A stretch of 64,000 nt of DNA from the NCBI RefSeq assembly GCF_017812015.1, contig NZ_JADQTN010000001.1, forward strand, positions 1,156,501 to 1,220,500, given 5' to 3'. The translations under genes were made by a program, and so were the position numbers. This document shows positions 42,822 to 56,666 of the stretch, piece after piece (positions within the stretch are counted from its first letter, which is position 1; the number at the start of each line of letters is the position of its first letter). The stretch is from Pontixanthobacter sp. CEM42. GTDB taxonomy: Bacteria; Pseudomonadota; Alphaproteobacteria; Sphingomonadales; Sphingomonadaceae. The notes below the pieces were generated by a model that searched no databases, was not told the DNA's origin, and saw nothing but the letters and a program-made list of their open reading frames with translations.

Positions 42822-44411
<1,590 letters not shown>

Positions 44412-44432
44412 CTAGCACCATTTATGTACCGC

Positions 44433-45923
44433 CTAGCCGCCCGGATGCGTGGATATATTCGCAAAATGGCGAACGAGCTCAAGGTGCAACAGCAAATCCT
44501 CGCTAGCTCCCCCCAGTTCAACATCATCGATCTCATCATTTGGACCGTGATAGCGGCCATTGGTGTAGCGCCGCATCAGGTTGGGATGCGCAAATGCGCT
44601 GGACACCATCAAGGTCGGCACATCGCTTTGCAGCAAGACCCAGCCATCTTGTCGTTTTACGAATTGCGCCGCGAAGTCGCTCGCTTCAACCGTGCGTCCC
44701 ATGCGGGTGATGATCGCGTTCACTTCAGTATCGAGTGGGGTCAGCCCCTCTCCCAATATCGCCACTTCATCACCGCGCGGCGCGAGGCCGATAGTGTCGA
44801 CGTTGAACGCAGCGACAATGGACTCGAGCGGCAATGGCGGGTCGCGAGTGAAAGCTCTCGCCCCTAGCAAGCCCCATTCCTCCGCCGTAGTGGCAACAAA
44901 ATAGACATCACGGTCAAGCGTGCGCCCCTTGTTCAAACGCTTCGCAAGCTCGGTCAGAAAAGCGAGGCCGCTGGCATTGTCAACCGCACCATTGCAAATG
45001 CCATCTCCACCTTCGCCCGCGCCCTCAACTTTGCCGCACATGCCGAAATGGTCCCAATGCGCCATCATCAGCACCGCACCGCTATCGGGAATTTTGCCGG
45101 GCAATTTGGCGACAAGATTGTGGGTTTGAACGACTGCCTCTGTCGACGTCGCCTCAAGTGTGGCCATAATATCGATATTCGCCGGCCGGAAATCGGACTG
45201 CTGCGACACTAGCTTGAGCGCGCCATATTGCGCCGCACCTATCAACGTTTCGGCTGCTTGCTCCGTGATCGCACCGTCCAGCATCGTGCCAGCCGCCTCG
45301 TCCGCAAGGCGATATGCTCCGTTCGCGCGAATCTGGCGGAGTTCATCGAAGCTCGCGGCATCAGGCATGATCGCCAGGACCGCCGCAGCGCCATTTTCAA
45401 GTAAGGCATCGCGCTGCACATTGCGTTGCGGGTGATCCCATTCCATCACAGCGACACGGCCCGCCAACTCCGATTGGTCGAGTGCAACGCCGAGCCTTCC
45501 AACATACAGCAGCGGCGCGCCCTCAACCAGCGAGCGTCTGCCAGAAGAGAATAGCGTTACCTGCTCTGCGGGAACGGCAATGTCTTCGCCGTAGCGGGTA
45601 AAGCGCGCTGCGCTGCTCTCCTGCGTCCACAAGGCCAGCTCAACCGGCGCAAACCAAGGGTTCGCTGGATCATTGGTGGCAGATTGCAATCCTGCTGCCT
45701 GCCATTCGCGCGCAAGATAGCTGAGCGTCTTGCGCTCGCCAGCGGTGCCGGGCCTACGCCCTTCAAACTCATCGCTTGCCAGTACAGCGATATGCGCGCG
45801 CATATCGGCTTCGATCACTTGTAGAGAATTGGGATCAGCAGAACGCGGACCATTCATAGGCGCGCAGCTAGCAGTGGCGCACAACGCCGCCGCTCCAGCC
45901 AATAGCCTAAGAAAAGCCCCCAT
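44433..45923 (-). CDS. M28 family zinc aminopeptidase, lipoprotein
   Basis: A 496-residue exported peptidase. A signal with lipobox-like ATASC (Cys20) suggests lipid attachment. The mature protein has an inserted PA domain (about 130-230) and the M28 catalytic domain with two-zinc ligands: His and Asp in MMAHWDHFG and GAVDNASG, Glu in ATTAEEWGLLGA, Asp in FNVDTIG and a late His in YHGPNDEI. It should remove N-terminal amino acids in the periplasm or at the outer membrane. It follows 3-hydroxybutyrate dehydrogenase by 14 bases. Confidence 0.93.
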   Translation of the reverse strand: MGAFLRLLAGAAALCATASCAPMNGPRSADPNSLQVIEADMRAHIAVLASDEFEGRRPGTAGERKTLSYLAREWQAAGLQSATNDPANPWFAPVELALWTQESSAARFTRYGEDIAVPAEQVTLFSSGRRSLVEGAPLLYVGRLGVALDQSELAGRVAVMEWDHPQRNVQRDALLENGAAAVLAIMPDAASFDELRQIRANGAYRLADEAAGTMLDGAITEQAAETLIGAAQYGALKLVSQQSDFRPANIDIMATLEATSTEAVVQTHNLVAKLPGKIPDSGAVLMMAHWDHFGMCGKVEGAGEGGDGICNGAVDNASGLAFLTELAKRLNKGRTLDRDVYFVATTAEEWGLLGARAFTRDPPLPLESIVAAFNVDTIGLAPRGDEVAILGEGLTPLDTEVNAIITRMGRTVEASDFAAQFVKRQDGWVLLQSDVPTLMVSSAFAHPNLMRRYTNGRYHGPNDEIDDVELGGASEDLLLHLELVRHFANISTHPGG

Positions 45924-45937
45924 TTTGCGCCCCGAAC

Positions 45938-46693
45938 TTATTCAGCGGTCCACCCGCCATCGATGCTCCAATTCGCACCAGTGACATTGCCCGCTTCTTC
46001 TTTGCAAAGGAACACTGCCAGCGCGCCAATTTCGGCAGGCTGAACAAACTTCTTGGTCGGAGTTTTGGCAAGCAGCACATCGTTGATGACTTCATCCCGA
46101 GTCATGTTGCGAGCCTTCATCGTGTCGGGGATTTGCCCTTCGATCAGCGGCGTCCAGACATAGCCCGGGCTGATGCAATTGGCAGTCACACCCGTTTGCG
46201 CCAACTCAAGTGCAATGGTCTTGGTGAAGCCATCGATCCCGTGTTTGGAGGCGTTATAAGCGCTCTTGAACGGCGAGGCAGTTTTGGAATGCGCGCTGGC
46301 CGTGTTGATAATCCGGCCCCAGCCCTTCTCCTTCATCGCGGGAACCGCAAGCCGCGTTGTGTGGAATGCTGCTGTCAAATTGAGCGCGATGATTGCGCTC
46401 CATTTATCGATCGGAAAATCCTCCACCGGAGAGACAAATTGCATTCCGGCATTGTTGATCAGAATATCGACTGCGCCCGCTTCGGCCATTAATTGCTCGC
46501 AGCCTTCCTGCGTCATCAGATCGGCACCGACATGCGTCGCGCCCAATTCTTCGCACAGTGCAGCAATCTCTGCCTCATCGCCGAAGCCATTGAGAACGAC
46601 CTGTGCTCCCTCCGCGCTTAGCGCCCGCGCAATGGCGAGCCCGATACCCGAGGTTGAGCCAGTGACGAGCGCGCGCTTGCCGGAAAGAGACAT
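45938..46693 (-). CDS. bdhA: 3-hydroxybutyrate dehydrogenase
   Basis: A 251-residue SDR enzyme interconverting 3-hydroxybutyrate and acetoacetate with NAD. The cofactor loop is ALVTGSTSGIGLAIA, NNAGMQFVSPVEDFP is the family-specific stretch, and the catalytic set is in INTASAHSKTAS and SAYNASKHG. PDTMKARNMTRDEVINDVLL is the substrate lid typical of BdhA. Start 46693 follows GGAG; a longer frame upstream is not supported. The enzyme fits poly-hydroxybutyrate or ketone-body use, though no PHB genes are in view. Confidence 0.93.
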   Translation of the reverse strand: MSLSGKRALVTGSTSGIGLAIARALSAEGAQVVLNGFGDEAEIAALCEELGATHVGADLMTQEGCEQLMAEAGAVDILINNAGMQFVSPVEDFPIDKWSAIIALNLTAAFHTTRLAVPAMKEKGWGRIINTASAHSKTASPFKSAYNASKHGIDGFTKTIALELAQTGVTANCISPGYVWTPLIEGQIPDTMKARNMTRDEVINDVLLAKTPTKKFVQPAEIGALAVFLCKEEAGNVTGANWSIDGGWTAE

Positions 46694-46809
46694 GGGGTAC
46701 TCCAAACGTGATTGATAATTAGGACCTTTGCGTAGCGCATCATTTGCGGGCATCGTTGCCATCGCGCAAGAATTATCGGCATCGCAGGACCGATTCGGAG
46801 GGAAAGAAT

Positions 46810-47679
46810 ATGCGTCTCAACCGGTTCAACACAAACAGCATCAATGTAGGGACAACCGGAGGTGGCGGACGTTTTCCCGGCGGCGGCGGCGGCAAAGTTG
46901 GCTGCGGCACAATTGTGATCGCGATCATTGCCGCATTGGTGTTTGGCGTCGATCCCATGCAGACTATCGGCATGATCGGCGGATCAGAGACAGGACAGCA
47001 GATAGAGCAGCAAGCTGGCGGGCAGACAGAGGAAGAAATCTGTACGTCGAACAAATACGCTCTGGAAACCTGCAACGCGCTCAGCTCCCTCAATGAAACA
47101 TGGGAACCAGTTTTCCGGTCGGCAGGCGTGCGCTTCCAGCAACCCATGCTGAAATTTGCGACAAGCGACCGCTTCAGAAGCGGGTGCGGTCAGGCGGCGA
47201 GCGGCATGGGGCCATTCTACTGCCCTGCCGACGAGGGCATTTACATCGACACCCGTTTTTACGACACGATGGAAAGGCAATTGGGCGCAGGCGGTGACTT
47301 CGCGCGTTATTACGTGGTGGCGCATGAATATGGCCATCATATCCAGAAATTAACCGGCGTCGCAGCGCAGATCCGCAGCCTGCAGCAGCAACGCCCCGGC
47401 GCTTCGAACCAATTGCAAGTTCTGATGGAGCTACAGGCGGATTGTTATGCTGGCGTTTGGGCTGGCAAAAACCGCAATCTGATTGAACCCGGCGACATGG
47501 AAGAAGGTCTTCGCGCCGCGGCTTCGATTGGCGATGACACGCTACAACGAAATGCTGGCCAGCGCGTCAATCCGGAAGGTTTCACGCACGGGACCAGCGC
47601 GCAGCGGATGCAGGCATTGAAGCTTGGGCTCGATTCTGCCGACGATACGCAATGCGACCGGATTGTGGAGCTACGCTAA
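46810..47679 (+). CDS. Neutral zinc metallopeptidase (YpfJ/KPN_02809 family)
   Basis: A 289-residue membrane-anchored peptidase. After a Gly-rich stretch (GGGGRFPGGGGGK) comes one membrane segment (GTIVIAIIAALVFGV), then a periplasmic domain with the zinc motif VAHEYGHHIQ (HExxH). ELQADCYAGVWA, the third-ligand motif, and RFYDTMERQLGAGGDFA are family landmarks. ATG 46810 follows GGAGGGAAAGAAT. It is divergent from bdhA across 116 bases. Substrate is unknown. Confidence 0.93.
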   Translation: MRLNRFNTNSINVGTTGGGGRFPGGGGGKVGCGTIVIAIIAALVFGVDPMQTIGMIGGSETGQQIEQQAGGQTEEEICTSNKYALETCNALSSLNETWEPVFRSAGVRFQQPMLKFATSDRFRSGCGQAASGMGPFYCPADEGIYIDTRFYDTMERQLGAGGDFARYYVVAHEYGHHIQKLTGVAAQIRSLQQQRPGASNQLQVLMELQADCYAGVWAGKNRNLIEPGDMEEGLRAAASIGDDTLQRNAGQRVNPEGFTHGTSAQRMQALKLGLDSADDTQCDRIVELR

Positions 47680-47689
47680 GCGAAGCGCG

Positions 47690-47727
47690 CAAACGAAAAG
47701 GCGGGGACAGTCGCACATCCCCGCCTT
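47690..47727 (-). terminator. Hairpin terminator between convergent genes
   Basis: A perfect 10-bp GC-rich stem (47698-47707 with 47718-47727) has a ten-base loop. On the minus strand it is followed by TTCGTTTG, so it should stop the leftward BlaR1-like transcript. On the plus strand the T run comes six bases later and is weaker. Confidence 0.8.
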
Positions 47728-47754
47728 CCTCGGTTTTAGGGTTGAAGCGCTAAA

Positions 47755-49320
47755 TCAGTCCTCTTTGCCCCAGTTCTCGATCTTTTCGTCGAGGGCCCGA
47801 AGGACTTCGGCGCGCATATCCGGCGCCATATCGGGGTCCTCTGCAATCGCCTTGCGTGCCTCTTTGATACCCGTCAGCGCTTGGGCCATCACCTCGCTGG
47901 TGCAGACATGGACGGTGCGAGTGCCATCTGAGTCAACGGTCTCGCCGGACTTGCCATTCTTGCAAGTGGTCTTGATCTTGGTCTTGGAGCCGTTCTGGTC
48001 CATTTCGATCATTGCCACGCGGACTTCTTCCATCGCTTCCTTGATCTCGACATCGACATTGTCGAGCTCTTCGCGAAGTTCCAGAATTATCTTCTCGCGC
48101 TCGTCTTCGGACAGTTTCTCACCGTTCTTAAACACCATCCGGTGCTTGCGAACCTCTTTGTGCTTTTTGCCGTCTTGGCCCTCGCCCTCTTTATTGATGA
48201 CATAGACATGCCGCTCGACTTCTTGAGCCTCGGGCGCAGCAGGTGCTTCTTGAGCGCCCTGCATCGCAAATGGTGCAGCAGGCGGTGCTGGTGGTGTTGG
48301 CGCGGCAACACCGCTCGGCAACATCGGAGCCTTGGCCGCCGCAGCTGCTGCTGGCGGCGGGTTCGGCGTGGTCATGGACTCTGCGTAAGAGATCGACGCG
48401 GTCAGCGGCAGCGCCAGCACAGCAGCACCAATCAACGCGCGACCAGCGAGCTTCCGGCGGGGGGAAATATCAGACATAGTTAGGCTCCTCAAACGATGGA
48501 TTATGGATTTCTCTCCGATGACGGGACACGCCATCGGGGCAGCTAAGGCTAGTCTCGGCGCGGCATTGGGACCGGTCGCGAAACTGGCAATGACATTGGC
48601 GTAAGCGGCTTTCTCTTCACCGCCGCGCGCCGCAATTACACGAGCATCGCAGGCCGCCTCTTGATCGCGGCGCATTGCGCGCCAGCCATACCAGGCAAGC
48701 GGATTGAACCAGTGCAGCGCGAACAACGGCTGCGCGGCAAAGTTGGCGAACAGATCATGCGCCTTGTGGTGCGACAGTTCGTGCTCGAGCGCGAGATCAC
48801 GCTCGATCTTGTCGGGCATCACCATAAAGCCTTCTGGAAGTGCGACGACCTTGTCTAATACGCCGAACGCGATGGGCGAATTGGTCGCAGGCGTTTCAAC
48901 CAGACGAACATCACCTGCCTCACCGACCGGATAGGCGTCCTCGAGCAATTCAGCCCGCATGCGGAAGTAATTGGTGAAGCGGAACGTCAGGAACGCTGCC
49001 GCACCGACAAGCCAGATCACCGACGCAAACAGAGCCCAATCAATGGGTGTGCTGGCAGCAACCGCGCTGGCACCTTGCGTTGCAGCGGCCCCACCTTCGG
49101 TCATGACAATTGTCAGGCCCGTTTCACTAACTGGCACGGGCGCAGGCGCGAGCCATGCGGGCAAAGTAAGCGGTGGTAGGATCAGGCGTAGCAACGGAAT
49201 TGCCCACAGCGCATAGGCAAATTGGGCGCCCAAATAACGTGCTACCGGGCGACGGATGACTAAGATCAAAGCAATCAGTACCGCGGTCCAAACGAGCGTA
49301 TCGAACAGCCAGGTGGTCAT
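47755..49320 (-). CDS. BlaR1-like M56 membrane metallopeptidase sensor
   Basis: A 521-residue integral membrane protein. Three or more membrane segments lie in residues 1-120. The M56 zinc motif HELSH is at 180-184 with the downstream DQEAACDARV. A further membrane segment (GRALIGAAVLALPLTASISYA) is near residue 290. Instead of the penicillin-binding domain of true BlaR1, the periplasmic part is a Pro/Ala linker and a charged, helix-rich region (ELREELDNVDVEIKEAMEEV) with two cysteines. It presumably senses envelope stress and cleaves the BlaI-like repressor encoded just upstream (ATGA overlap). Confidence 0.9.
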   Translation of the reverse strand: MTTWLFDTLVWTAVLIALILVIRRPVARYLGAQFAYALWAIPLLRLILPPLTLPAWLAPAPVPVSETGLTIVMTEGGAAATQGASAVAASTPIDWALFASVIWLVGAAAFLTFRFTNYFRMRAELLEDAYPVGEAGDVRLVETPATNSPIAFGVLDKVVALPEGFMVMPDKIERDLALEHELSHHKAHDLFANFAAQPLFALHWFNPLAWYGWRAMRRDQEAACDARVIAARGGEEKAAYANVIASFATGPNAAPRLALAAPMACPVIGEKSIIHRLRSLTMSDISPRRKLAGRALIGAAVLALPLTASISYAESMTTPNPPPAAAAAAKAPMLPSGVAAPTPPAPPAAPFAMQGAQEAPAAPEAQEVERHVYVINKEGEGQDGKKHKEVRKHRMVFKNGEKLSEDEREKIILELREELDNVDVEIKEAMEEVRVAMIEMDQNGSKTKIKTTCKNGKSGETVDSDGTRTVHVCTSEVMAQALTGIKEARKAIAEDPDMAPDMRAEVLRALDEKIENWGKED

Positions 49321-49706
49321 TTGCGCAGCTCCTTCAACAGAACTTCCATCTCAGCGATATCATCATCGGTGAGCGCCTCCGCCTCGGCCAATTGCGCAAA
49401 AAGCGGCGCGGCGCGGCCACCGAACAGGCGATCGACCAGACGACGCGACTCTGAACCGGTGTAATCCGCACGTTCAAGCAGCGGGGAATAGAGAAAACGA
49501 CGACCGTCAGGCTCGGTCGCGATGGCGTTCTTAGCCACCAACCGGCTGAGCAACGTCTTCACCGTCGCCAGCGACCATCCGCGCTTCTCGCACACTTCGT
49601 CACAAACCTCGGATGCAGTCAGCGGACTGCGCTGCCACAGTGCCTCCATAACCGCATGTTCGGCATCGCTAATACGTTCTGGTGTTTTGTCTTCTGGTGT
49701 GGACAC
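49317..49706 (-). CDS. BlaI/MecI/CopY family transcriptional repressor
   Basis: A 129-residue winged-helix repressor. The DNA-binding domain covers residues about 10-80 (ISDAEHAVMEALWQRSPLTA and GWSLATVKTLLSRLVAK), and a C-terminal helix bundle mediates dimerisation. It starts at GTG 49706 with GGGGAGGG upstream. Its stop overlaps the start of the M56 sensor gene, the usual blaI-blaR1 order. Two BlaI-type boxes overlie its own promoter, so it should repress itself until cleaved. No beta-lactamase gene is directly attached. Confidence 0.93.
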   Translation of the reverse strand: MSTPEDKTPERISDAEHAVMEALWQRSPLTASEVCDEVCEKRGWSLATVKTLLSRLVAKNAIATEPDGRRFLYSPLLERADYTGSESRRLVDRLFGGRAAPLFAQLAEAEALTDDDIAEMEVLLKELRK

Positions 49707-49725
49707 AAAGCCCTCCCCGGCTTTC

Positions 49726-49762
49726 GTTTACGTTTGTAGGCATTACGACTACGGATGTAAAC
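49726..49762 (-). promoter_or_regulatory. Predicted blaI-type autorepressed promoter with two operator boxes
   Basis: Two 10-bp boxes, TACGTTTGTA (49729-49738) and TACGGATGTA (49750-49759), each match 8 of 10 positions of the staphylococcal BlaI/MecI core TACATATGTA. They stand exactly 21 bases apart, two helical turns. Reading leftward, TTTACA (49761-49756) and TACAAA (49738-49733) are a plausible -35 and -10 with a 17-base spacer, so the boxes sit on both promoter elements. The whole block is also an inverted repeat with 14-base arms, 11 of 14 matching. Confidence 0.7.
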
Positions 49763-49834
49763 ATGAAGCATGGATGAACGGTTCCTGTCACTCGTCGAAG
49801 GACATCTTACGCCCATACAATAGGGCGCATAGCA

Positions 49835-49868
49835 ATCGGGCGGAGAAGCCATCGCTCCCCCGCCCGAT
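49835..49868 (-). terminator. Possible terminator hairpin downstream of creD
   Basis: A perfect 9-bp stem, ATCGGGCGG with CCGCCCGAT, and a 16-base loop lie 21 bases past the creD stop. There is no clear U run on the minus strand (TTGCTATG follows), so termination may be weak. Confidence 0.45.
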
Positions 49869-49889
49869 CAACAGCAGTGACGGTTCTAG

Positions 49890-51308
49890 TTAGTTGGCCT
49901 CAGCAAGACTCTCCTCTTCATCCTGACCGGTCAATCCCGACCAGTCGATGTTGCGTGTGGCGTACATTACCGCAGCCAGAGCAACGAAGAGCAGTACCGA
50001 TCCAATCATCAGCGACCATGCTTCCAAGCTCAGCAGGACGTAGAGTGTCATGTAGAGGCCAGTCAGCATCCCGCCGATCATCGACGCACGTCGCCAACCG
50101 CCTAGCACCGCCGCGCTGTAGGATGTCAGCAGCCCGATCATTGCAACGCTGGCCACGATGTAAGCCCAAGCGAAGCCGATCACCTCAGCGAACGCCAATA
50201 GCATCACGAAGAACAGCACCAGGCCGATGCCCGTCAGCAAATATTCCGCAGCGGCCACCCGTGCTCCGGCCACCACATCAAACATGAAGAAGCAGGCAAA
50301 GGTAAAGCCGATAAACAGGAAGCCATATTTCACCGACCGGTCGACTTGGCTGTAGAGATCGACCGGTTCGATCAGCCGGATCGACGCGTATTTCGTGGAC
50401 GAACCGTCAGAAACAGCAGGCGCATAGTCTATGACAGTGCGCCCATGGACATCATCCACAATCGGCGCGGGCGCATCGCTGAGATTCACCAAGGATTCGC
50501 CCAATGCCAGATTGGTAATGCCGCCATAGGTCGCTGTGAAACCGTCCGCATTGCCGCTTTCATCACCGCGACTATCGGGCAGAAAATCGCCTTTGAAACT
50601 GGGATGTTGCCACGGTGATGTGACTGTCCATTCGGTTTCGCCGCCTCGCGGGATGAGCGCAATCGAGCGACTGCCGCGCAGACCATATTGCCAGCTCACC
50701 GCGAGTTCCTCGCTGCCGTCCCACTCAACCGCAGTGGAAAAGCCGGAACCGTTGGTGCTCGCCGGCCCATTGCCGGGATGTAGTTCCTGCACTTCATTGC
50801 CAACACGAACAGTTGTGCCATCCGTCAGGCCGCGCGGGTCGGACACGCCAAAGCGCAGCTCCGCTTGATCAAACAACAATTGATCGCGCTTTACTCCGCC
50901 ACGATCGAGGTCGCTCGGGAGAACAAAGCTGGCCGTTCCCGCCATGTCCGATTGATAGATCACCGACCGATAGATTGAATACTGCTTCACGTCCGGCTGC
51001 AAATCGGTTTCAATACTCTGCTTGAGCGGTGACAGAAACAGTTCACGCCGGGCGTCGATGGAGCGAGTCACTTGCTTGCCATCAACCGTTTCGGTCTGCA
51101 CCGATCTGCTGTTGTAGGGGATGACGAGGACTGGCCCGGTCACGGTCTGCGCACCGCCCCACCCCGCTGTGATCGATGCCTGCGCGGTGCGCGACTGGGT
51201 CTCCCGATCACTCACCAACGCATAGACCATAATCAATGGTACCAGCAGAACTACACCAATAGCCGCTGCCAAAAACAGCTTCACTCCAGGACTTCGATCA
51301 CGCTTCAT
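49890..51308 (-). CDS. creD: Inner membrane protein CreD
   Basis: A 472-residue CreD-family protein. One N-terminal membrane segment (VKLFLAAAIGVVLLVPLIMVYALV) leads to a large periplasmic region (about 35-320) with GPVLVIPYNSR and SVKYGFLFIGFTFACFFMFDV. Five or six segments follow at the C-terminus (RVAAAEYLLTGIGLVLFFVML and onward). CreD is controlled by CreBC in gammaproteobacteria and affects envelope integrity and colicin/beta-lactam response. Here no CreB or CreC is near; its neighbour is the BlaI/BlaR-like pair. AGGAGGCCCGA precedes the ATG. Confidence 0.93.
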   Translation of the reverse strand: MKRDRSPGVKLFLAAAIGVVLLVPLIMVYALVSDRETQSRTAQASITAGWGGAQTVTGPVLVIPYNSRSVQTETVDGKQVTRSIDARRELFLSPLKQSIETDLQPDVKQYSIYRSVIYQSDMAGTASFVLPSDLDRGGVKRDQLLFDQAELRFGVSDPRGLTDGTTVRVGNEVQELHPGNGPASTNGSGFSTAVEWDGSEELAVSWQYGLRGSRSIALIPRGGETEWTVTSPWQHPSFKGDFLPDSRGDESGNADGFTATYGGITNLALGESLVNLSDAPAPIVDDVHGRTVIDYAPAVSDGSSTKYASIRLIEPVDLYSQVDRSVKYGFLFIGFTFACFFMFDVVAGARVAAAEYLLTGIGLVLFFVMLLAFAEVIGFAWAYIVASVAMIGLLTSYSAAVLGGWRRASMIGGMLTGLYMTLYVLLSLEAWSLMIGSVLLFVALAAVMYATRNIDWSGLTGQDEEESLAEAN

Positions 51309-51320
51309 TCGGGCCTCCTA

Positions 51321-51338
51321 TGTACGGTGAACCGTGCA
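51321..51338. promoter_or_regulatory. Inverted repeat upstream of creD
   Basis: TGTACGGT and ACCGTGCA, separated by GA, form an 18-base inverted repeat with one mismatch per arm, 13 to 30 bases before the creD start and just beyond its ribosome site. It is of a size bound by a dimeric regulator. It does not match the TAC-N4-GTA boxes before the blaI-like gene. Confidence 0.4.
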
Positions 51339-51418
51339 TTGTGAGCGATGAACTGAATACGTTGTGAATGGCGCGCGCGAAGCCTGGCGGCGTCGATCCT
51401 GTGCTGAGTGCGACGTGG

Positions 51419-51796
51419 TTAGCCTAAAATGTATGAGCCAACGCTCGTCTTCACTTCGATCTTGCGCGAGGGACCCGGTTGAAATGCTGGCCGAAAAAAC
51501 ATCCCGAGTGTCAGTGTCTCACCTGCTGCGAGATCTTTGGACGTGCAGTTAAAACTCCAGTCCTGATCATCGAACTTCACAGCAAAGGCGCTTCGGGTCG
51601 ACTTTTGATGGGTCTGCAGCACCATGTCAGCATCAGTCGGGCACAAAGACACTGACTGCTGCTCTGCCGAATTGTTGGTGAGAACCAGATCAAAGCGTTC
51701 CCAACGGGTCTCGCCTATACTCTGCTCATACCCGCCAAACGTTCCAACAACTGCCGGGGTTGCTGCCAGCGCAGCGGCTGTAATCAAACTAAGCAT
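51419..51796 (-). CDS. Small secreted protein of unknown function
   Basis: A 125-residue protein with a short N-terminal export signal (LSLITAAALAATPAVVG) and a beta-rich remainder (RFDLVLTNNSAEQQSVSLCP, FAVKFDDQDWSFNCTSKDL, LTLGMFFRPAF). The two cysteines could pair. No family recognised. It stands alone between creD and the cyclase gene with gaps of 110 and 157 bases, in which I see no other gene. Confidence 0.65.
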   Translation of the reverse strand: MLSLITAAALAATPAVVGTFGGYEQSIGETRWERFDLVLTNNSAEQQSVSLCPTDADMVLQTHQKSTRSAFAVKFDDQDWSFNCTSKDLAAGETLTLGMFFRPAFQPGPSRKIEVKTSVGSYILG

Positions 51797-51953
51797 CGCA
51801 CTACTCCCTCTCTATAACTAACTGTATCAATTAGAAAGTGCTTGATGAACTGGGGATGATTTTGAGTGGTATCTAGTATGGGAGCCTGAAGAGAGGGTGA
51901 CGACGTAAAGCCCCATTGCGAACCGCGAGGCCGGGTTTGGCGGCCCGCCCCAA

Positions 51954-53186
51954 CTAACCGATCACGCGATATATCTTGAGCTCACCGACACCCTTCAGCG
52001 CGACCAACTCAGGTTCTGAAAAGGCGGTCACTTCGCACGCGCTGTAGAAAGTGCTTTCCGAAACCGCGATCCCGCCTGGATCAGCCGCGCCTTCAATGCG
52101 GCTCGCAATATTCATCGTATCGCCCCAATAATCATAGGCCAGCCTTTGATTTCCGATGACACCGCCAACCACCGGTCCGGTATGGATACCGATCCGTACA
52201 TTGACATCGATCCCGCTAGACTTCGCATATTCCGCAATCTGGCTGATCAGTTGCTTCGAAAATGCAATCGCGGCGATGGCGTCCCTATCAGCTGAGGCAT
52301 TTCCGCCCGATACGGCCAAGTAAGCATCGCCAATCGTTTTGACCTTTTCCACCCCGTGCTGCGCCGCACAATCATCAGCGAATTGGAAGATTGTGTTCAG
52401 CATCTTCACCAGATGGCCAGGAGACAGTTTCTTTGCGAGTTTCGAGAAGCCGACAATATCAACAAACACCACCGACACATCGGAGAAAGCATCCGCCACC
52501 GCCTCACCCTGACGCAACCGGTTTGCGACATCGCGCGGCAGGACATTGAACAGCATTTCCTCGGTCTTGGCCTGCTCTTCCTCCAGCGCCAGATTGGCCG
52601 CGAATGTTCTCCGCGCGCGCCGGTCAATGTCCCAGTTTGCAAAACTGGCGAAGGTGAAAAATGTCGTGAAATTGGTGAAGGTGTAAACCTTATTTACGAT
52701 GGTCCGATCCGCTTGCAGTAGGAACACAATATACAGGACTAACAGCACCGCCGCCCAGGCAAGGAAATAGCGCGTAGTGGCGACAAATCCGACGCTGGCA
52801 AACACCATCAATATGCCAAGATTGATGATCGCCATGCCGAATTGCGAAATGCCGGTTATCTCTGCCTGCGCACCCAGCGCATCAATCAGCAGAACCATAA
52901 CCCCCAGCATGAGGCTGAAGATCACGATATCGATCCAGCCCTGCACGACGTAAAAGCGGGTGAAGGTAATGCCGAACACGCCGGCTAGCAGCAGAACAAA
53001 CGGGCCAGCCGCCAGATTGTATTGCAGCACGCCATCGCGCGGGAAATGCATCGGGTTAAAGCCGATGTAAGAGATCAGCGTGATAATTCCGATGGCTGCC
53101 AGAAAGCGCGTTGCCGGAATACGCGCTTTACGCTCGCTCTCGACATAGGATTTTTCGACCTGCGGATCGTCAAAACGAAACAGCAT
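51954..53186 (-). CDS. Membrane-bound class III adenylate cyclase
   Basis: A 410-residue cyclase with about six membrane segments (residues 28-185), a short coiled linker (LALEEEQAKTEEML) and a catalytic domain. Metal-binding Asp243 (VFVDIVGFS) and Asp287 (GDAYLAVSG) are present. Lys283 and Asp356 (YDYWGDTMNIASR) are the adenine-selecting pair, and Asn359 and Arg363 complete the active site, so cAMP synthesis is expected. ATG 53186 follows AGGGG seven bases upstream; GTG 53189 and TTG 53207 are alternatives. No cAMP receptor gene is adjacent. Confidence 0.92.
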   Translation of the reverse strand: MLFRFDDPQVEKSYVESERKARIPATRFLAAIGIITLISYIGFNPMHFPRDGVLQYNLAAGPFVLLLAGVFGITFTRFYVVQGWIDIVIFSLMLGVMVLLIDALGAQAEITGISQFGMAIINLGILMVFASVGFVATTRYFLAWAAVLLVLYIVFLLQADRTIVNKVYTFTNFTTFFTFASFANWDIDRRARRTFAANLALEEEQAKTEEMLFNVLPRDVANRLRQGEAVADAFSDVSVVFVDIVGFSKLAKKLSPGHLVKMLNTIFQFADDCAAQHGVEKVKTIGDAYLAVSGGNASADRDAIAAIAFSKQLISQIAEYAKSSGIDVNVRIGIHTGPVVGGVIGNQRLAYDYWGDTMNIASRIEGAADPGGIAVSESTFYSACEVTAFSEPELVALKGVGELKIYRVIG

Positions 53187-53283
53187 CACTAGCCCCTGAT
53201 TAAACAACCTTCGGTCACGGTTACGTCAGGTACACACGCCGGTTTAACAAAGCCACTTCTTCCGTCCGATACTACCCGCATTG

Positions 53284-54330
53284 TCAGCGTCCCGCAGGAG
53301 TCCTGAGCGCCTCAAACTTCTGACGAAGCGCACCAACATCGGTGAGCTTGCCCGTCGGGTTGGTCGCGGCTTTGGGCATTTGCGCTTCCAATGCTGGCAA
53401 CCAATTGCTGACCGACCCACCGATGGAAGTTTGCGGCAACGAATTTGCCACGCCCAAATTGCTCTCCCAACCAGTAATCATCTGCACCGCCTCTGACGTT
53501 GCGACCTCCAACGAGCTAGGTTTGCGCAGCGCACGATTGATCAGAGCATCGCCGAAGAACGTCCAGTCATTGTCGGGCTCACAGCCGAAGGACGTTCGGT
53601 TGAAAGTCGATGCAGTCACGATCGCTGTGTCCGGGCCAGCAAGATGCGGCACAAACACACCCGAATAACACGCGCTGATAATCAGGACGCGCCGCTTGAT
53701 CCCGGCGCTCTTCAATACATTGCGTAGGCGCTGCGGCGACAGCATGCCAAAACCGGTATCACCATAGTGATAGGCCAGTCCCTGCGGTGTTCCATGCGTG
53801 GTCGTGTAGAGCACCAGAACATCTTCGCTCGTGTCCATCACTTCGGCAATTCGCGTGAGTGCAATCGTCATCGCCGTAATCGACCCGCGCGGCAATGTGT
53901 TTACACTGTCGCGGCCATTGGGGCCCGCCAGAGTTATCGTGCGGCCCGCAGCACCGAACCGCCGCGACAAGACATTGGCCGCCTCCCGCGCCTCTCGCGC
54001 GAACACCGCATCGCTATCGAGCGCTACGCTGAGGACGTAAGTATCGACTTTGCCTTTGCGCTGCGGCTTCAAGCCACCGAGTGTGCTGCCCAGCAAACGG
54101 CTCTGCCGCAGCATTTCTTTGGCATCGACACCGCGCTGCAGTTCCGGCCCGAATTGCAGGCTAAACTGCTTTTGCGCATCGTTCTGGCCGGTGCCCAAGC
54201 CGGGCCACGGCGTAGTGTGACGCGGCGGTTGTTCGGGTGCGTCAGAAGATTGGGCGTAAGCGAGTCCAAATCCCACAAATGTGGTGACAACAAACGCGAC
54301 GCTCACCAATTGTGCGAGGCGCGTTCTCAA
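53284..54330 (-). CDS. Peptidase C13 (legumain/caspase-like) family protein, exported
   Basis: A 348-residue protein with a signal peptide (LAQLVSVAFVVTTFVGFGLAYA) and a caspase-fold domain. The catalytic dyad appears as His179 in LYTTTHGTP and Cys221 in LIISACYSGVF, matching the order and context of clan CD family C13. It starts at TTG 54330 with no strong ribosome site, so the start is less sure. It lies 55 bases downstream of sdhA, where sdhB might be expected. C13 members elsewhere cut after Asn or act in GPI transamidation; the substrate here is unknown. Confidence 0.85.
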   Translation of the reverse strand: MRTRLAQLVSVAFVVTTFVGFGLAYAQSSDAPEQPPRHTTPWPGLGTGQNDAQKQFSLQFGPELQRGVDAKEMLRQSRLLGSTLGGLKPQRKGKVDTYVLSVALDSDAVFAREAREAANVLSRRFGAAGRTITLAGPNGRDSVNTLPRGSITAMTIALTRIAEVMDTSEDVLVLYTTTHGTPQGLAYHYGDTGFGMLSPQRLRNVLKSAGIKRRVLIISACYSGVFVPHLAGPDTAIVTASTFNRTSFGCEPDNDWTFFGDALINRALRKPSSLEVATSEAVQMITGWESNLGVANSLPQTSIGGSVSNWLPALEAQMPKAATNPTGKLTDVGALRQKFEALRTPAGR

Positions 54331-54385
54331 ATTTGATTACCGAGCGTTATATACTCGCTGCTTGCCACTCTAATCTTCCTGTCAG

Positions 54386-56224
54386 CTAGTAAACCCGCTT
54401 TTTCGGCTTGATATATTCCGCATCGTCAGTGAGCGTATATTCATGGACCGGGCGGAAGTCGATTTTGACCTTGCCGCCTTTGCCGCCCCAGCCGTCGAAC
54501 CAGGCTGCGGTGTGCTTCATCCAGGTCTTGTCGTCGCGATCGGGGAAGTCTTCATGCGCGTGGGCGCCGCGGCTTTCCTTGCGGTTTTCGGCGGAGGTCA
54601 TGGTCACGCTGGCCTGCGCGATCAGATTGTCGAGCTCCAGCGTTTCAATCAGATCGCTGTTCCAGATAAGCGAGCGGTCGGACACTTTGATGTCCTCCAT
54701 CTTCTTATAAGTCGCGGCGAGTTGCTTGACGCCTTCGGTCATCAATTCGCTGTCGCGGAACACGGCAGCGTGTTTCTGCATCGTTTTCTGCATATCGCTA
54801 CGCAGTTCAGCGGTTGGTGTACCGCCATCTGCGTGACGGAAGTGATCGACACGGCCCAGCGCGAGATCCGCGCTGTCTTTCGGAAGATCAGGTTGAGCAG
54901 CGCCCGCTTTTGTGATCTCCTTCAGGCGGTGACCGGTTGCGCGGCCAAACACCACGAGGTCGATCAGCGAGTTCGAACCAAGGCGGTTCGCACCGTGGAC
55001 CGACACACAGGCTGCTTCACCCACAGCAAACAGACCCGGCACAACCGTATCCGGATTGCCATCCTTGCCGATGGTCACAACTTCGCCGTGATAATTACAG
55101 GGGATGCCGCCCATATTGTAGTGAACCGTCGGGGTCACCGGCAGCGGCTCGCGTGTCAGATCGACATTGGCGAAAATCTTGCCGCTCTCGGTAATACCGG
55201 GGAGACGGTCCGCCAGCACTTCGGGATCAACGTGATCGAGGTGCAGATAGATGTGATCGCCATCCTCACCGACACCGCGGCCTTCGCGCATTTCCAGCGC
55301 CATCGAACGCGACACAACATCGCGCGATGCAAGGTCTTTCGCCGATGGAGCATAGCGCTCCATAAAGCGCTCGCCCTCGGAATTGGTCAGATAACCGCCC
55401 TCGCCGCGCGCGCCCTCGGTAATCAGAACGCCAGCGCCGTAAATGCCGGTCGGGTGGAATTGAACGAATTCCATATCCTGCAGAGGCAGGCCAGCGCGCA
55501 GCACCATGCCGCCGCCATCGCCGGTGCATGTGTGCGCCGATGTCGCGGTGTAATAACACCGGCCATAGCCGCCGGTTGCCAGCACTACGCTTTGCGCGCG
55601 GAAACGGTGGATCGAACCATCGTCCAGACACATCGCGATCACGCCGACGCATTTGCCTTCGCTCATAATCAGATCGAGCGCGAAATACTCGATGAAGAAG
55701 TCCGCATCATATTTCAGACTCTGCTGATACAGCGCGTGCAGCATTGCGTGGCCGGTACGGTCGGCAGCAGCACAGGTCCGCTGGACCGGAGGACCCTCGC
55801 CCATATTCTGCATGTGCCCGCCAAACGGGCGCTGATAGATTGTGCCGTCTTCGTTGCGCGAGAACGGAACGCCAGCATGTTCAAGTTCGTAAACAGCCTG
55901 CGGTGCTTCACGAACGAGATACTCAATCGCATCTTGGTCACCCAGCCAGTCAGAGCCCTTCACTGTGTCATACATATGCCAGGACCAGTGATCGGGTGTG
56001 TTGTTACCCAACGAAGCCGCAATGCCGCCTTGCGCCGCAACGGTGTGGCTACGTGTCGGGAAAACCTTAGAGATATTCGCGGTCTTTAGGCCAGCTTCTG
56101 CGCTGCCCATGGTTGCACGAAGGCCGGAACCACCCGCACCAACAACAACGGTGTCATAGAGGTGATCGATAATCTTATAGGCAGGCGTGTTACCCGCTTC
56201 GGACGCGCTAGTATTAGCCGGCAT
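54386..56224 (-). CDS. sdhA: Succinate dehydrogenase flavoprotein subunit
   Basis: A 612-residue subunit of complex II oxidising succinate to fumarate. The FAD loop is [33 protein letters not shown] holds the covalent flavin His region, and [21 protein letters not shown] the active-site loop. [21 protein letters not shown] and a complete C-terminus (PKKRVY) are present. Start 56224 follows GGGAG; an upstream frame runs into sdhD. It is one base from sdhD in the order C-D-A. Confidence 0.98.
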
Positions 56225-56225
56225 A

Positions 56226-56666
56226 TTAGCGGGCTCCCATTGAATTTTGAAGTTCGGCAAGTGCGCCTTCAGCGGCCGCATCGCCCTGTGCAGTCATGAC
56301 GATCCGCACGACAAAAAAGATACCGGCAGCCGCGCCGCCGATTGCCGCAAGATTGAGCAGCGCCAGCGTCGCAAACTTATTGCCCGCCGTGTGCACGTAA
56401 TCCTCGATCAGCACCTGAAGCCCGTGATGAGCATGCCAAAACACGCAGATGATCAGCAAGACCATCGCCGTCGCAGGCACTGCGCCTGAAAGATAGGCGC
56501 TCCATGTACCGTAGGACATGTCAGGCAGCATCAGAATCGAAGCGACCAACCAGATCGTCAGCACGACATTGCCGATGGCCGTAAAACGCTGGACCAGCCA
56601 ATGATGCGCGCCCTCATGCGACGAGCCAAGCCCGCGTACTTTCCCGAGAGAAGTTCCGTTACCCAT
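56226..56666 (-). CDS. sdhD: Succinate dehydrogenase membrane anchor subunit D
   Basis: A 146-residue anchor with three membrane segments ([40 protein letters not shown] and [23 protein letters not shown]). [15 protein letters not shown] supplies the heme-region His and quinone-site residues. The N-terminal [20 protein letters not shown] is typical of alphaproteobacterial SdhD. It follows sdhC by 11 bases. Confidence 0.95.

Follow-up and report, generated by a model that had tools for sequence, protein, structure and literature searches.

Conserved, probable paired BlaI-type operator and adjoining direct repeat at the promoter of a sphingomonad blaI-M56 protease operon

A paired TAC-N4-GTA operator and a TTCA-N7-TTCA direct repeat lie side by side upstream of a blaI-like gene that is followed by an M56 protease gene, and both elements are conserved in relatives. 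We tentatively propose, with a confidence that stays somewhat short of probable, a widespread sphingomonad signalling unit whose BlaI and sensor-divergent M56 protease would have essentially no targets but themselves, the protease being the output and no resistance gene taking part. Its promoter would be a two-input gate that combines a BlaI operator with the site of a conserved two-component system. This system would regulate itself and would also activate creD and an M16 peptidase gene. BlaI-M56 pairs without a beta-lactamase pose the question of what their targets are. A literature search found no description of this envelope regulon or of the pair; subscription papers lay mostly outside its scope, and an earlier description is possible.

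The window, by which the whole analyzed stretch of 64,000 nucleotides is meant, belongs to the genome of a marine-type bacterium, 3.08 Mb in two contigs. Three genes on the same strand are relevant here, with creD upstream of blaI:

47755-49320, minus strand: M56 protease gene, 521 amino acids, PF05569 (9e-42, residues 6-256)
49317-49706, minus strand: blaI-like repressor gene, 129 amino acids, GTG start, PF03965 (1.5e-32)
49890-51308, minus strand: creD gene, PF06123 (3e-114), above the cut-off of the NCBIfam CreD model

The BlaI-like protein matches PF03965 with 112.7 bits (cut-off 22.6) over residues 12-125, so that the domain covers most of the protein, and it is the only PF03965 match in the whole genome at an E-value of 0.001. 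MecI and BlaI structures were matched in the structure comparison. Judged by BlaI, the named relatives that rank best are Allopontixanthobacter, an assembly labelled Erythrobacter, and Pontixanthobacter. The start of the M56 gene and the stop of blaI overlap in ATGA. No beta-lactamase family was found among the eleven scanned proteins of positions 42822-56281, the blaI-m56 pair included, and for these proteins the original prediction that no beta-lactamase is attached to the pair holds. Further along the window a cyclase gene (PF00211, 51954-53207) adjoins a C13 peptidase gene (PF01650, 53284-54330), the two occupying 51954-54330. The GGGGAG ribosome-binding site of blaI forms the loop of a six-pair hairpin with the arms AAAGCC/GGCTTT (49707-49724). 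At least three pairs of the arms occur in 8 of 53 relatives, versus 4.2 after shuffling, and a role of the hairpin in presenting the ribosome-binding site is weakly suggested.

In the M56 protease HExxHH and RRDQEAACD are invariant among 18 sequences, which together with the PF05569 match identifies an M56 zinc-protease domain. The C-terminal part, made up of a linker rich in proline and alanine and an end that changes fast, is poorly modelled (mean pLDDT 69). Pfam, NCBIfam and structure comparison revealed no penicillin-binding sensor domain in the protein; the match to BlaR1 structures is confined to residues 1-266 of 602, and the NCBIfam model blaR1_generic gives 97 bits against a cut-off of 400. 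It is unlikely that the protease functions as a BlaR1-type beta-lactam sensor. MecI and BlaI are cleaved between Asn101 and Phe102. The residues aligned to this site here are His/Gln-Leu.

The operator region of blaI reads TTTACATCCGTAGTCGTAATGCCTACAAACGTAAA on the minus strand and contains the following elements:

49763-49779, minus strand: direct repeat GTTCATCCATGCTTCAT, abutting the -35 and Box 1; candidate activator site
49756-49761, minus strand: proposed -35 element, TTTACA
49759-49750, minus strand: Box 1, TACATCCGTA, TAC-N4-GTA, overlapping the -35; conserved
49738-49729, minus strand: Box 2, TACAAACGTA, TAC-N4-GTA, overlapping the originally proposed -10; conserved
49733-49738, minus strand: originally proposed -10 element, TACAAA, with an alternative at about 49740-49745

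The original prediction had described two TAC-N4-GTA boxes upstream of the blaI-like gene, overlapping TTTACA-N17-TACAAA. Both the boxes, 21 bases apart from start to start, and the coordinates and spacings of the hexamers (49761-49756 and 49738-49733) were found to be correct. The window contains three TAC-N4-GTA sites, two of which are Box 1 and Box 2. In 200 shuffles of the window a mean of 2.2 single boxes was obtained and the exact pair in none, and when the intergenic region of 183 bases was shuffled 20,000 times with its dinucleotides preserved, a pair at 15-25 bases never arose. A genome-wide scan for the exact 21-base pair, proposed at the outset as a check, returned a single place in the 3.08 Mb; with up to three mismatches allowed, two further places match the paired pattern. 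As sequences, both 16-mers at blaI fit RNYKACANNYGTMRNY, the operator consensus proposed for the CopR-CopY family in the accessible part of PMC7253601. The same text suggests two operators, a distal one at the -35 and a proximal one that blocks the polymerase, and mentions a similar arrangement for BlaI; a two-operator design as such is thus already known.

The match to this consensus could also be read to mean that the repressor is a CopY-type copper sensor and not a protease-controlled BlaI. The protein indeed matches the NCBIfam model CopY_TcrY at 3e-24. However, its 85.7 bits remain below the cut-off of 121.95 for that model, a C-terminal Cys-X-Cys is absent from the BlaI-like protein and from the 11 aligned sequences, and cysteines 35 and 39 of the BlaI-like protein are not conserved. 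The eleven scanned proteins include no copper pump, and the M56 gene follows blaI in 79 of 80 named loci. These observations make a copper sensor very improbable, and a BlaI that is controlled by its neighbouring protease is the reading followed below.

Conservation of the boxes was examined in 149 genomes of the family. The repressor was matched in 102 of these, with 94 strong matches (E at most 3.8e-37) and 8 that were weak only; the loci of 90 of the 94 were read, own genome included and its duplicate loci L001 and L002 left out. A box is present between about -150 and +30 in 88 of the 90 loci, and the exact 21-base pair in 49. Within 14-30 bases the spacings of the pairs are 21 (49 loci), 22 (13), 19 and 24 (2 each), and 16, 20 and 23 (1 each), so that the phasing of 21 bases proposed originally is the commonest one, but other spacings occur too. 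Some blaI promoters contain one exact box alone. The consensus derived from 158 boxes is about GAYTACRNNYGTARTC. In the 80 named loci, which overlap with the set of 90, a box was found in every case and a pair at 19-24 bases in 55. Two boxes are present in 15 of the remaining 25, and the 11 of those that were inspected, all Novosphingobium-titled, have a spacing of 16 without exception (L190, L193-L196, L199, L204, L210, L220, L239 and L242). By eye, two other sequences were seen to recur in these regions: a TGTAAA...CCCGACA-like sequence (TGT-N11-ACA) upstream of blaI in L055, L059, L076 and L088, and a TTCGTCGA-type sequence (GTCGTTCGTCGAA) upstream of many blaI and creD genes, those of L036, L066 and L068 among them.

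The distribution of the paired operator is narrow. It was found in 51 of the 149 genomes, at one place in each, and the reversed control pattern at none. Each of these 51 also has a strong ortholog of blaI, and 50 of the 51 places are within 200 bases of blaI. The single exception (genome G110, L312 2005-2740) lies before a gene for a DUF998 membrane protein with a TTGAC-type promoter. The comparison, with boxes in 88 of 90 loci and 50 of 51 paired places at blaI, lends good support to the predicted autorepression by the BlaI-like protein, and offers no support for the wider regulon that the paired motif had originally been hoped to reveal. For the single box, YTACRNNYGTAR sites number 15 in own genome, including two at blaI, versus 101 for the reversed control pattern. 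In 8 genomes 28 places fit RNYTACRNNYGTARNY and 15 are at blaI, versus 145 in all for the reversed control; none of the 16-mers at the remaining 13 recurs in a second one of these genomes. Single-box targets of BlaI elsewhere are possible. Because the paired operator is so nearly confined to blaI, the protease probably acts as the effector. For the paired motif, the computational answer to the question of the targets is that the pair would regulate almost only itself.

The core promoter elements were compared across the same loci. A simple sigma-70 scan did not list the TTTACA/TACAAA promoter, because TACAAA does not have the final T that the scan requires; this also makes it a weak -10 by the E. 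coli consensus. In 20 of 88 promoters a TTGAC is found just before or at Box 1. TTTACA occurs in 52 of the 68 promoters without TTGAC and in 2 of the 20 with it (p about 1e-7, a value that is descriptive only since the loci are related), a distribution that supports TTTACA as the -35. The other half of the original assignment, TACAAA as the -10, gained no support from the comparison of Box 2. The first hexamer of this box agrees with TATAAT at a mean of 3.08 of 6 positions in promoters without TTGAC (n=51) and 3.0 in those with it (n=17), so the likeness is no closer without TTGAC and placement of the -10 in this way failed. In the TTGAC group, -10-like sequences are present between the boxes.

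The original reading of the promoter overlooked the direct repeat that abuts the operator. In 54 of the 88 loci the 60 bases upstream of Box 1 contain a repeat that agrees with TTCA-N7-TTCA in 7 or all of its 8 letters; it is at -19 in 30 loci and at -18 in 10. In 41 loci with the repeat at -19/-18 the TTCA columns hold about 0.7-2 bits, versus 0.04-0.45 further upstream; these loci were picked for having the repeat, and the unbiased test ranks 2560 repeat types, each a 4-mer with a given spacing, with the boxes masked for blaI. TTCA-N7-TTCA ranks first of the 2560 types upstream of blaI (43 of 90 loci, best unrelated type 11) and also upstream of creD (21 of 30, best unrelated 2), where the copy in the window is:

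51353-51369, minus strand: like repeat upstream of creD, ATTCACAACGTATTCAG

In each of 4 genomes compared, the repeat also precedes one and the same gene, which is an M16 peptidase gene judging by the one copy tested. All loci compared for the repeat are related and not independent. Own genome has 8 RTTCAY-N6-TTCAK sites, 6 of which are elsewhere than at blaI and creD. The creD leader also contains a palindrome, GTACGGTGAACCGTGC (window 51322-51337), and similar sequences of the GCACGGTTC type recur upstream of creD in many of the 30 loci.

Plain autorepression by BlaI, with no second regulator acting on the blaI promoter through the upstream repeat, would be another account. The operator alone accounts for the boxes, the repeat at 7 of 8 letters is missing from 34 of the 88 promoters, and the two copies in the 64 kb compare with 2.2 in shuffles, a chance level that leaves conservation alone to speak for the repeats. 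Against this account, the same repeat takes the first rank upstream of three different genes or operons, and most promoters with a TTGAC -35 are without it (15 of 20, the other 5 having both); neither repeat nor TTGAC is found in 19 of the 88. We regard plain autorepression as quite unlikely, and consider it rather probable, from the arrangement and conservation of these sequences, that the blaI promoter has two inputs, with an envelope-type two-component system as its activator and BlaI as its repressor.

A candidate for the activator was found outside the window, at a locus referred to here as L121:

L121 1051-3600, beyond the window in own genome: genes for a 103-amino-acid protein, a response regulator and a kinase in one operon, preceded by TTCA-N7-TTCA

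Upstream of L121-type regulator-kinase operons the repeat is again first of 2560, in 28 of 30 loci with 14 for the best unrelated type; these loci are one per genome and the best 30 of 44 genomes. The L121 regulator itself was matched in 44 of 44 family genomes searched. Its top NCBIfam scores are to the PmrA and QseB models, all under the cut-offs among those shown, and its nearest solved structure is BasR/PmrA. PmrA boxes are also direct repeats with an 11-base period. The 103-amino-acid protein, first in the operon, has no Pfam or NCBIfam family match, and a PepSY-like label for it was dropped for that reason. The shared site and the apparent autoregulation make the L121 regulator the leading candidate for activation of the blaI promoter.

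Alternatively, the repeat could be a genuine site for a different OmpR-type regulator (such as PhoB, ChvI, CenR or a CreB-like protein). The half-sites and the 11-base period resemble the cre/blr-tag TTCACnnnnnnTTCAC in the accessible text of PMC3660660; relative to TTCAC-N6-TTCAC the last base differs (TTCAT-N6-TTCAT at blaI, TTCAC-N6-TTCAG at creD), with the same core and period. Excerpts of PMC9275681 give CenR sites as TGA-N8-TGA repeats, and the available part of a ChvI study names creD in PBP1a-depletion data of Agrobacterium (PMC9731437). However, TTGC-N3-GCAA is the motif reported for ChvI of Caulobacter (PMC9731502), and the CreB model NF008296 has 26 matches in own genome, none of which is above its cut-off of 273 bits; a CreBC regulon was dropped as unsupported. 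Moreover, among the seven loci of OmpR-type regulators read in own genome, the repeat is present at L121 only, and there it is kept in 28 of 30 loci. The accessible parts of the Sinorhizobium and Brucella papers PMC10659215, PMC10746171, PMC10538546, PMC9491525 and PMC3687685 contain no full comparable motif. Reading of the repeat by a regulator other than that of L121 is kept as a rival but judged unlikely, and the L121 regulator is taken as the activator in the mechanism that we suggest.

In this mechanism BlaI dimers on both boxes, two turns of the DNA apart, would bar RNA polymerase from the -35 and -10. The M56 protease, produced from the same transcript, would cleave BlaI upon an envelope signal, by which repression is relieved; the signal would act at the periplasmic part of the protease and is probably not a beta-lactam. 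An OmpR-type response regulator bound to TTCA-N7-TTCA with its 11-base period could activate the blaI promoter, creD, the M16 peptidase gene and its own operon. An envelope signal would thus raise the activator and at the same time let the M56 protein remove BlaI. The derepressed operon would yield more protease as well as more repressor, giving a quick and self-limiting response. In view of its own probable sites and of a repeat common to cell-envelope genes, the pair probably answers two signals and is mainly self-controlled. One short repeat connects it with both creD and a conserved two-component system, and this offers a testable entry to envelope control in Sphingomonadales.

The proposed system can be compared with three known ones. 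It shares with BlaI-BlaR1 and MecI-MecR1 of staphylococci and bacilli a PF03965 repressor with MecI/BlaI structural relatives, an M56 protease partner in the same operon and TAC-N4-GTA operators at the promoter. It differs from them in a protease without detected penicillin-binding sensor, in scanned neighbours without beta-lactamase, and in a paired operator that is almost confined to its own promoter and joined to a direct repeat. The cop promoters of CopR-CopY, as described in the accessible part of PMC7253601, likewise have two operators, with a 16-base consensus that the sites at blaI fit, but here a protease-type partner takes the place of copper and the C-terminal Cys-X-Cys is absent. 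Finally, the cre/blr-tag promoters of CreBC/BlrAB (available text of PMC3660660) have a direct repeat of the TTCA half-site with an 11-base period, which is here found upstream of creD too. In contrast to that system, no CreB above the family cut-off is present, the repeat is joined to a BlaI operator, and the linked regulator scores best with the PmrA and QseB models.
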